This document shows, piece after piece, positions 4,699-6,209 of a stretch of 64,000 bases of DNA. Made by a program: the position numbers and the translations under genes. The notes beneath the pieces are model-generated. The model saw only the letters and a list, made by a program, of their open reading frames with translations, was not told where the DNA came from and did no database searches. The stretch lies in NCBI RefSeq assembly GCF_030160015.1, contig NZ_BSNN01000002.1:620001-684000 (forward strand), given 5' to 3'. Source of the stretch: Amylibacter marinus (GTDB lineage: Bacteria > Pseudomonadota > Alphaproteobacteria > Rhodobacterales > Rhodobacteraceae). Each line of letters begins with the position of its first letter. Position 1 is the stretch's first letter.

Positions 4699-5305
4699 AA
4701 AATCCTATCACCATGGCAACTTGCGCCAAGCATTGGTTGATGCGACAACGACTCTGCTAGAAACAAAGGGCCCCACCGGATTTACCATGGCCGAGGCTGC
4801 GAAATCCGCCGGTGTGTCCGCCGCCGCTCCGTATCGGCATTTCGTGGGGCGAGAAGAGATGATTGGCGAGGTTGCCCTGCAGGGGTTTGGTATTTTTGCC
4901 GAGCTGATGGATTTTGCCAGCGCCAAGGCCGCGACACCTCTTGCCGCTTTCGAGAGTGTTGGGCGTGCCTATTTGGCCTTTGCCCGCAAACATCCAGGCC
5001 ACTATATTGCAATGTTTGAAAGCGGTCTGAAGATCAATGCAAATGCAGATCTGGCCAATGCCGCCAACCGGGCTATGGATGTGTTAAACAGCGCTGCAAA
5101 CGAGCTGAGCAAAGGCCTACCGGCCCATAGGCGCCCGCCTGCGATGATGATCAGCCAACATATTTGGGCTATGAGCCATGGGATTGTTGAGCTATTCGCC
5201 CGCGGCGAACCTGGATCAAATTCGCCCTTTTCGCCCGAAGAGCTGTTGGAAACGGGCACCGGAATTTATTTGCGCGGATTGGGAATAATCCCAGAGGATC
5301 ACTAG
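4691..5305 (+). CDS. TetR-family transcriptional regulator
   Basis: A 204-residue regulator. The N-terminal TetR helix-turn-helix is clear (residues about 5-60: HHGNLRQALVDATTTLLE, then MAEAAKSAGVSAAAPYRHF), and the C-terminal ligand domain has the WHG-type look (MISQHIWAMSHGIVELFARG). The frame is open for 45 codons upstream, but the ATG at 4691 starts exactly at the conserved N terminus and overlaps the ppk2 stop by 8 nt, so I chose it. The ligand and targets are unknown; local targets could include the hydrolase-ppk2 run. Its stop codon lies inside a 20-bp tandem duplication shared with the end of the convergent merR gene. Confidence 0.85.
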   Translation: MAKKSYHHGNLRQALVDATTTLLETKGPTGFTMAEAAKSAGVSAAAPYRHFVGREEMIGEVALQGFGIFAELMDFASAKAATPLAAFESVGRAYLAFARKHPGHYIAMFESGLKINANADLANAANRAMDVLNSAANELSKGLPAHRRPPAMMISQHIWAMSHGIVELFARGEPGSNSPFSPEELLETGTGIYLRGLGIIPEDH

Positions 5306-5340
5306 TTATCCCAGAGGATCACTAGTTATCCCAGAAAATC
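5288..5340. repeat. 20-bp tandem duplication at the tetR/merR junction
   Basis: The 20-bp unit ATCCCAGAGGATCACTAGTT occurs at 5288-5307 and again at 5308-5327, followed by a partial, diverged third copy (ATCCCAGAAAATC) from 5328. The first copy holds the tetR stop codon and the third encodes the end of the convergent merR gene. Confidence 0.85.
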
Positions 5341-5709
5341 AATGATCGGGCAGTTTGGGCGCTCATCACCATGACAGGCATTCACCAGATGGGCCAGCTC
5401 ATCATGCAGGTGCTGTAGTTCCAGCTGCTTCTTCTGGATCATCTCCAAATGCGCAGAGGCCAGCTTTTTTACGTCTGCGGCGCTGCGTTGGTGATTGGTG
5501 TAAAGGGCCAGCAACTCACGGCATTGATCGATTGAAAAATCAAAACTGCGAGCGCGGCGTATGAAGATCAGTTGTTTCAACGCCTCTAAATCATACAGGC
5601 GATACCCCGCATCCGAGCGCCCACTGGGCGTAACCAAGCCAATATCGGCATAGTAGCGCACGGTTTTTATCGGCAGGTCGGATTTTTTTGCAATTTCGCC
5701 AATTTTCAT
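5326..5709 (-). CDS. CueR-like MerR-family Cu(I)-responsive regulator
   Basis: A 127-residue MerR-family activator. The winged helix-turn-helix fills residues 1-70 (MKIGEIAKKS, TVRYYADIGLV, RLYDLE) and is followed by a dimerisation helix. The metal loop carries C112 and C120 in the form CHGDERPNCPII, the same spacing and numbering as the Cu(I)-binding cysteines of E. coli CueR, so response to Cu(I)/Ag(I)/Au(I) is expected. The protein stops right after this loop and lacks the histidine/cysteine tail of E. coli CueR. It is divergent from a DUF4396 membrane protein gene, and the start codon directly adjoins the operator of that gene. Confidence 0.85.
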   Translation of the reverse strand: MKIGEIAKKSDLPIKTVRYYADIGLVTPSGRSDAGYRLYDLEALKQLIFIRRARSFDFSIDQCRELLALYTNHQRSAADVKKLASAHLEMIQKKQLELQHLHDELAHLVNACHGDERPNCPIIDFLG

Positions 5710-5740
5710 TTTACCCTCCAGTTACTGGAGAGGTTATAAA
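5710..5740 (+). promoter_or_regulatory. MerR/CueR-type promoter with 19-bp spacer
   Basis: A -35 hexamer TTTACC (5710-5715) and a -10 hexamer TATAAA (5735-5740) are 19 bp apart, the over-long spacing typical of MerR-family promoters. The spacer holds an imperfect inverted repeat, CTCCAG-TTA-CTGGAG with flanking ACC/GGT, as in CueR operators. It drives the DUF4396 gene at 5763. Confidence 0.75.
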
Positions 5741-5762
5741 AGAGCCAAGCAAGGGAATCAAT

Positions 5763-6209
5763 ATGACAAGTATCGCGCAAAATCTTCAGATAAATTGGTA
5801 TTGCCGCCATACATGGCCGCGGGCCGCCAAGAACACCGCATGGTGCTTGCTGGGCTGTTCAATTGGCGATTTGGGAACCATTGCCTATTTTCAATACACG
5901 GGCATTGGCTGGCCTGTTCTGGCAATTATGACCCTGGCGATTATTAATGGGCTGTTGACCTCCATTGCGCTAGAAACCTTCATTCTGGCTCGCCAGATGG
6001 CGTTTCGTATTGCGTTCAAGACTGCGATTGGAATGTCTCTGATTTCCATGATCGCGATGGAGGCGGCAATGAATATCGTGGATGTGGTCCTAACTGGGGG
6101 CGCTAAATTAACATGGTGGGTGATCCCTATTATGTTGCTGGCGGGGTTTCTTGCGCCGCTACCCTACAATTACTGGCGACTAAAGGCTCTTGGTAAGGCC
6201 TGTCACTAA
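5763..6209 (+). CDS. DUF4396 membrane protein, predicted copper-regulated
   Basis: A 148-residue integral membrane protein that I assign to DUF4396 from its overall pattern. There are about four hydrophobic segments (roughly residues 25-45, 48-68, 80-105 and 115-138). C14, H16, C28 and C32 cluster around the N-terminal loop and first helix and could bind a metal. The ATG at 5763 has a good ribosome-binding site (AAGGGA, 5 nt upstream); the longer open frame upstream would cross the promoter. The CueR-type promoter and divergent CueR-like gene predict induction by copper. Whether it transports, senses or sequesters metal is unknown. Confidence 0.7.
   Translation: MTSIAQNLQINWYCRHTWPRAAKNTAWCLLGCSIGDLGTIAYFQYTGIGWPVLAIMTLAIINGLLTSIALETFILARQMAFRIAFKTAIGMSLISMIAMEAAMNIVDVVLTGGAKLTWWVIPIMLLAGFLAPLPYNYWRLKALGKACH

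Follow-up and report, generated by a model that had tools for sequence, protein, structure and literature searches.

What does a CueR-type switch control in a genome that has no CopA? In Escherichia coli, CueR activates the P1B-type ATPase CopA, which is its textbook target, together with CueO. In the stretch of Amylibacter marinus DNA analysed here (64,000 nucleotides, positions 620,001 to 684,000 of contig NZ_BSNN01000002.1; hereafter the window), a regulator of this type is encoded divergently from a small membrane protein of the DUF4396 family, with the two start codons 53 bases apart. The reading that we favour, by a modest margin when all of its parts are taken together, is a copper switch of the CueR kind with a single target, in which a compact DUF4396 effector occupies the place of the CopA ATPase. 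The elements of the switch are as follows.

5326-5709, minus strand: CueR-type MerR-family regulator of 127 amino acids (TIGR02044, Pfam MerR domains, alignment to E. coli CueR 1q05, conservation).
5710-5740, plus strand: CueR-type promoter of the DUF4396 gene, with the -35 element TTTACC at 5710-5715, a 19-bp spacer and the -10 element TATAAA at 5735-5740 (sequence, genome scan, 47 of 47 cueR-adjacent loci).
5713-5734, no strand assigned: dyad operator within the spacer, ACCCTCCAGTTACTGGAGAGGT (pattern scan of the window, conservation in related loci).
5763-6209, plus strand: compact DUF4396 membrane protein of 148 amino acids, complete, with four predicted membrane helices (PF14342, structure model).

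The type of the regulator is shown. The best-scoring family is TIGR02044, the CueR family (144.0 bits, E 2.4e-42), ahead of ZntR (98.6 bits), CadR/PbrR (94.6 bits) and MerR (84 bits); the score falls 3.4 bits under the curated TIGR02044 cut-off of 147.4, and for this reason the protein is labelled CueR-type. Its nearest solved relatives are the E. coli CueR structures (best 1q05), with which C112 and C120 align exactly. The metal-ligand criterion of CueR, Cys112 and Cys120 at 7-residue spacing, is met, and both residues are kept in 48 of 48 intact homologous regulators. Position 77, which is Ser in E. coli CueR, is Ser in 47 of the 48 and Ala in the window's own regulator; Cys at this position, a feature of Zn, Cd or Hg (divalent-metal) sensors, occurs in none of them. 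Position 118, at which CueR and GolS, a gold sensor, are not alike, is Pro in 47 of 48 regulators and Ala in E. coli CueR. At the other end of the gene, a 20-bp tandem duplication (two copies of CCCAGAGGATCACTAGTTAT, 5290-5329) lies across the convergent ends of cueR and a TetR-family gene, whose two stop codons fall one in each CCCAGAGGATCACTAGTTAT copy.

The operator is also shown, as a site only and without binding data. The spacer dyad reads ACCTCTCCAGTAACTGGAGGGT on the minus strand (5713-5734), and when up to 3 mismatches are allowed it occurs once in the window, against 0 occurrences expected. Across the whole genome the sole exact match to the 27-base operator pattern is this promoter, and the remaining three matches carry 3 mismatches each, which is the level reached by the control pattern. 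No ordinary sigma-70 promoter was found at the DUF4396 gene by a consensus scan, an expected outcome because the spacer is 19 bp long. To score related loci, an operator weight matrix was built from 42 unique sites adjoining cueR; with the spacing fixed at 19 bp, the operator scores above the 99% shuffle level in all 47 cueR-adjacent loci (the window included), a result that is partly circular since those loci supplied the matrix. The same threshold is passed by 14 of the 34 loci that have no neighbouring cueR and that lay outside the matrix construction, and 12 of these 14 operators score 21.9 or more, against 8.5 for the best of 1620 shuffles and 16.0 for the best of 1422 control stretches. 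The CueR criterion of a dyad in a 19-bp-spaced target promoter is met here and conserved in 47 of 47 loci, and in the 14 loci the operator accompanies DUF4396 without a regulator gene next door.

The minus strand of 5710-5765, read by eye toward cueR, also contains TTGATT-17-TATAAC together with a GGAGG immediately ahead of the start of cueR, an arrangement that the consensus promoter scan did not list. It is possible, again by eye only, that an operator half-site doubles as the cueR ribosome-binding site and that the divergent promoters share one -10 region.

The gene behind the operator encodes a protein that matches PF14342 over its full length (profile 1-141 of 141) at 128.1 bits, against a gathering cut-off of 27; no other domain matches, and the actuator, phosphorylation and ATP-binding domains of a P1B-type Cu-ATPase are absent. 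The AlphaFold2 model (pLDDT 84) has four membrane helices, which together with the Lys/Arg-rich segments (positive-inside) predict an N-in/C-in topology. Conservation across 69 sequences marks four groups of residues.

5802-5810, plus strand: C14-x-H16, predicted cytoplasmic N-terminal ligands (C14 in 67 of 69, H16 in 58 of 69).
5844-5870, plus strand: C28-x3-C32-x3-D36 (CxxGCxxGD) on one face of helix 1 (invariant in 69 of 69; helical angles).
6033-6083, plus strand: ladder of M91, M96, M99, E100, M103 and D107 on one side of helix 3 (invariant in 69 of 69; helical angles).
6201-6206, plus strand: C147-H148 at the C-terminus (C147 in 69 of 69; H148 in 66 of 69, with 3 gaps).

E71 is invariant in the same 69 sequences. 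Cys, His and Met are the usual ligands of Cu(I), a matter of established chemistry. No relative of known structure could be identified: a search of PDB sequences with the DUF4396 profile gave no match at E values up to 1, and Foldseek on the model gave a best E of 0.88, with no confident fold match. A second structural comparison offered Mtr subunits of methanogens, then Rnf/Nqr complexes, with Z up to 7.5, and was set aside as this range is uninformative for helical bundles.

An initial annotation, made without database searches, had proposed C112 and C120 at the E. coli CueR spacing, the divergent TTTACC-19 bp-TATAAA promoter with a dyad in its spacer, and an N-terminal cluster of C14, H16, C28 and C32. 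The first claim held on alignment to 1q05, and so did the second; absence of the dyad and spacing from orthologous loci, which was to have counted as refutation, did not occur, the operator being present at 19-bp spacing in every cueR-adjacent locus. The four residues of the proposed cluster are present, and the conservation check that it had suggested was run on the 69 sequences with the counts given above, but the N-terminal-cluster part failed for C28 and C32, which lie within helix 17-46 of the AlphaFold2 model, a predicted membrane helix, and not in a soluble N-terminal cluster. The annotation had missed the invariant C147, the near-invariant C-terminal H148 and the invariant Met ladder (M91, M96, M99, M103).

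The conservation and the gene neighbourhood of this arrangement are likewise shown. A scan of named bacterial genomes returned at least 586 DUF4396 relatives, of which the best 80 were kept; these are 70-81% identical and come mostly from marine Alphaproteobacteria, SAR116 included, with some Gammaproteobacteria. The DUF4396 gene is adjoined by a cueR-type gene, nearly always divergent, in about 47 of the 80 loci. A copper gene other than a cytochrome lies within 4 kb in 40 of 80 loci, and at 4-8 kb in 5 of 40 complete loci; the neighbours within 4 kb are led by CopD (23), CopC (22) and multicopper oxidase (21), with names checked by Pfam, and CopB and cupredoxin genes also occur nearby. The genes downstream of DUF4396 on the same strand often encode cytochrome c, CopC, CopD and multicopper oxidases. 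No CopC/CopD or multicopper oxidase gene was found near the DUF4396 gene of the window, where the next genes encode DUF2852 and RDD proteins. A Rhodobacterales relative (L048) has the same flanks with a cytochrome c gene after DUF4396, and the window is therefore taken as a reduced form.

We do not extend the copper linkage to the whole family, since the long DUF4396 proteins of the same order have no CueR, CopC, CopD, multicopper oxidase or ATPase homologue in their fetched flanks. Several of these long members share the CxxGCxxG[DE] motif; the compact subfamily differs from them in lacking the N-terminal extension, in having the Met ladder and the C-terminal CH, and in being linked to copper. 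Two long DUF4396 proteins, L008 (G129) and L011 (G033), carry a Met/His-rich tail (HGCMTLPG...) and have HCxAGD in place of CxxGC, with no copper gene found in their fetched flanks. Six SAR116-type loci without a neighbouring cueR (L063, L064, L071, L075, L082 and L104) have two small conserved genes on the opposite strand upstream (-1 and -2), one of which gives a weak, below-cut-off match to 'nickel responsive protein SCO4226-like'. The idea that compact DUF4396 is common plasmid cargo was rejected, as the plasmids of PLSDB yielded a single DUF4396, a distant one from Streptomyces tendae.

The window's genome (2.72 Mb, 99.98% complete) contains one CueR-type gene, one operator and one Cu-ATPase, and neither a CopA nor a PF07732 multicopper oxidase was found in it. 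Its sole Cu-ATPase is CcoI, the assembly pump of the cbb3 oxidase, flanked by FixG/FixH (FixG_C, FixH) and FixS genes. A survey across the class covered 386 genomes, 33 of them carriers of compact DUF4396 and 353 non-carriers; any Cu-ATPase was found in 9 of 33 carriers versus 263 of 353 non-carriers (Fisher p about 1e-7), and 8 of the 9 carrier enzymes are CcoI by their neighbours (ccoG, ccoH or ccoS). When a CopA level was set at E <=1e-160 (classified CcoI proteins reach at most 521 bits, and three clear non-CcoI proteins begin at 557 bits), a CopA-level ATPase was present in 1 of 33 carriers versus 200 of 353 non-carriers (Fisher p about 4e-10). This near-absence of CopA from carriers is shown, with the proviso that the genomes are related and not independent, such that Fisher p-values overstate independence. 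A second carrier set (n=51, partly overlapping the first) contains 14 genomes with a Cu-ATPase, which is non-CcoI in 3 or 4 of them. In the one exception of the first set, compact DUF4396 and the ATPase, which is CopA-like, share a multi-metal island on contig 2 of G488 (L172-L173), next to integrase-like genes; the island also contains Cus-like RND genes and another regulator of the MerR type (gene names assigned by eye).

The contrast persists at finer taxonomic scale. Within the window's order, a CopA-level ATPase is present in 185 of 194 non-carriers versus 0 of 2 carriers (p 0.003); of the five congeners sampled, all have a CopA-level ATPase and none has compact DUF4396; and in each of four families (f27, f30, f91 and f93) a carrier has no Cu-ATPase and the listed non-carriers have one. 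Carriers with genomes of 2.5-4.5 Mb likewise lack CopA, and these contrasts together mean that small genome size alone is no explanation. Many small CopA-less genomes in the class also lack DUF4396, and CopA loss therefore does not require DUF4396. The CopA association stands without formal genome-size matching; RND (CusA-like) efflux was outside the survey, and CopA-less carriers could have another exporter; and the 4 carriers in the phylum-wide sample were not enough to support a test of their own. The initial annotation's claim that the switch is dedicated to DUF4396 held genome-wide, with one cueR, one operator, no CopA-type ATPase and no PF07732 multicopper oxidase, and the genome survey that it called for found cueR beside compact DUF4396 in the proportion given above. 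Its interpretation of DUF4396 as a copper-handling membrane protein is supported, copper induction being inferred without induction data; the apparent role as a stand-in for CopA had not been part of it.

Taken in turn, the parts of our reading carry different weight. That CueR regulates DUF4396 in response to copper can be stated with high confidence, although copper as the inducer is inferred and there are no induction data. That compact DUF4396 is a functional stand-in for CopA is probable. Whether the DUF4396 protein itself exports Cu(I) is close to an even call; the export function is inferred, without transport data, from the kind of regulator, from the near-absence of CopA in carriers and from ligands that lie buried. 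Apo-CueR would sit on the over-long 19-bp spacer, and binding of Cu(I) (or Ag(I)/Au(I)) to C112/C120 would lead it to distort the promoter DNA and so activate DUF4396 transcription, as inferred from the CueR family. The ion path is also inferred: on the cytoplasmic side, C14/H16 and C147/H148 would capture Cu(I), and the ion would then move across the membrane between helices 1 and 3, along the face of helix 1 that bears C28, C32 and D36 and the face of helix 3 that bears the Met, Glu and Asp residues. Proton coupling, an inference as well, may involve the invariant D36, E71, E100 and D107, and the protein is perhaps a homo-oligomer. Many relatives encode periplasmic partners alongside (cytochrome c, CopC/CopD, multicopper oxidase), to which the released copper would pass. 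It counts against export that it would be unusual for a protein of 148 residues, with no ATPase domain, to act as an exporter, and that no confident fold match exists.

Set beside the E. coli CueR-copA regulon, the window shares the CueR-type sensor with C112/C120, the 19-bp-spaced promoter with its dyad and, in relatives, copper-tolerance genes nearby; it differs in that the target is a 148-residue DUF4396 protein, in a genome with no CopA or PF07732 oxidase and only one operator. DUF4396 resembles the CopA Cu+-ATPase in its place in the CueR regulon and in the role proposed for it, which is to clear Cu(I) from the cytoplasm, but it has no ATPase domain, is unrelated in sequence and is about a fifth of the size. 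Eukaryotic Ctr1 is also small, carries MxxxM within a membrane helix and has a Cys/His motif at its C-terminus, a resemblance that offers a lead and not a classification; Ctr1 has three helices and imports copper, and no sequence or fold relation to DUF4396 was found.

The main rival, which remains possible, holds that DUF4396 is a membrane Cu(I) buffer or chaperone that passes copper on to partners in the periplasm or membrane (cytochrome c, CopC/CopD, multicopper oxidase, cytochrome oxidase), and that export is performed by something else or is unneeded in copper-poor sea water. The small size of the protein, its many soft ligands, the absence of an ATPase or known carrier fold, and the frequency of CopC, CopD, cytochrome c and multicopper oxidase among its neighbours all speak for this view. 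Against it, the switch is kept in the window's genome despite the lack of a nearby CopC/CopD or multicopper oxidase gene and of any PF07732 oxidase genome-wide, and the predicted membrane helices contain invariant Cys, Met and acidic residues, a placement that suits passage better than storage.

Less probable is the view that CopA scarcity is a by-product of marine genome streamlining, with DUF4396 an accessory copper gene of the same lineages that replaces nothing. Genome size is indeed 1.2-2.5 Mb in many carriers, Cu-ATPases are also missing from many small genomes that lack DUF4396, and relatedness inflates the significance of the CopA anti-association; yet carriers of 2.5-4.5 Mb lack CopA too, non-carriers of the same genus (5 of 5) and the same family have it, and DUF4396 occupies CopA's usual regulatory position directly behind the CueR operator. 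It is very doubtful that the regulator responds mainly to Au(I)/Ag(I), in the manner of GolS, or to some other metal that DUF4396 would serve instead of copper. Pro118 in 47 of 48 regulators, where E. coli CueR has Ala, and the missing Ser77 of the window's regulator favour that idea, whereas the neighbouring genes are copper genes, the Cys of Zn, Cd or Hg sensors is absent at position 77, and the anti-association is with the Cu-ATPase family.

On the preferred reading, that of a single-target CueR switch with DUF4396 in place of CopA, the switch is of a known kind; what is new is the DUF4396 effector and the apparent replacement of CopA, neither of which is described in the sources searched, although a description that we have not seen may exist. 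The sole paper with 'DUF4396' in the literature searched (PMC7760498) names it only as the flank of a metal island; 'PF14342' appeared in no paper of that literature, and copper searches gave no description of compact DUF4396, with most subscription journals outside the scope. A bolder reading, which we consider tempting but rather less probable than its negation, is that of a minimal Cu(I) exporter family (about 150 residues, four helices), probably driven by the proton gradient, that displaced the otherwise near-universal CopA, with the CueR switch kept, in some Gammaproteobacteria and in many of the marine Alphaproteobacteria.

All but about 5% of sampled members of the window's order have a CopA-level ATPase. 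If our reading is true, SAR116 and related bacteria, which are abundant in the sea, would have in DUF4396 a new effector of copper detoxification, and perhaps an overlooked route of copper removal. A domain of unknown function would thereby gain a specific and easily tested role, and, if the replacement is true, counts of copA genes would underestimate the copper tolerance of marine genomes.
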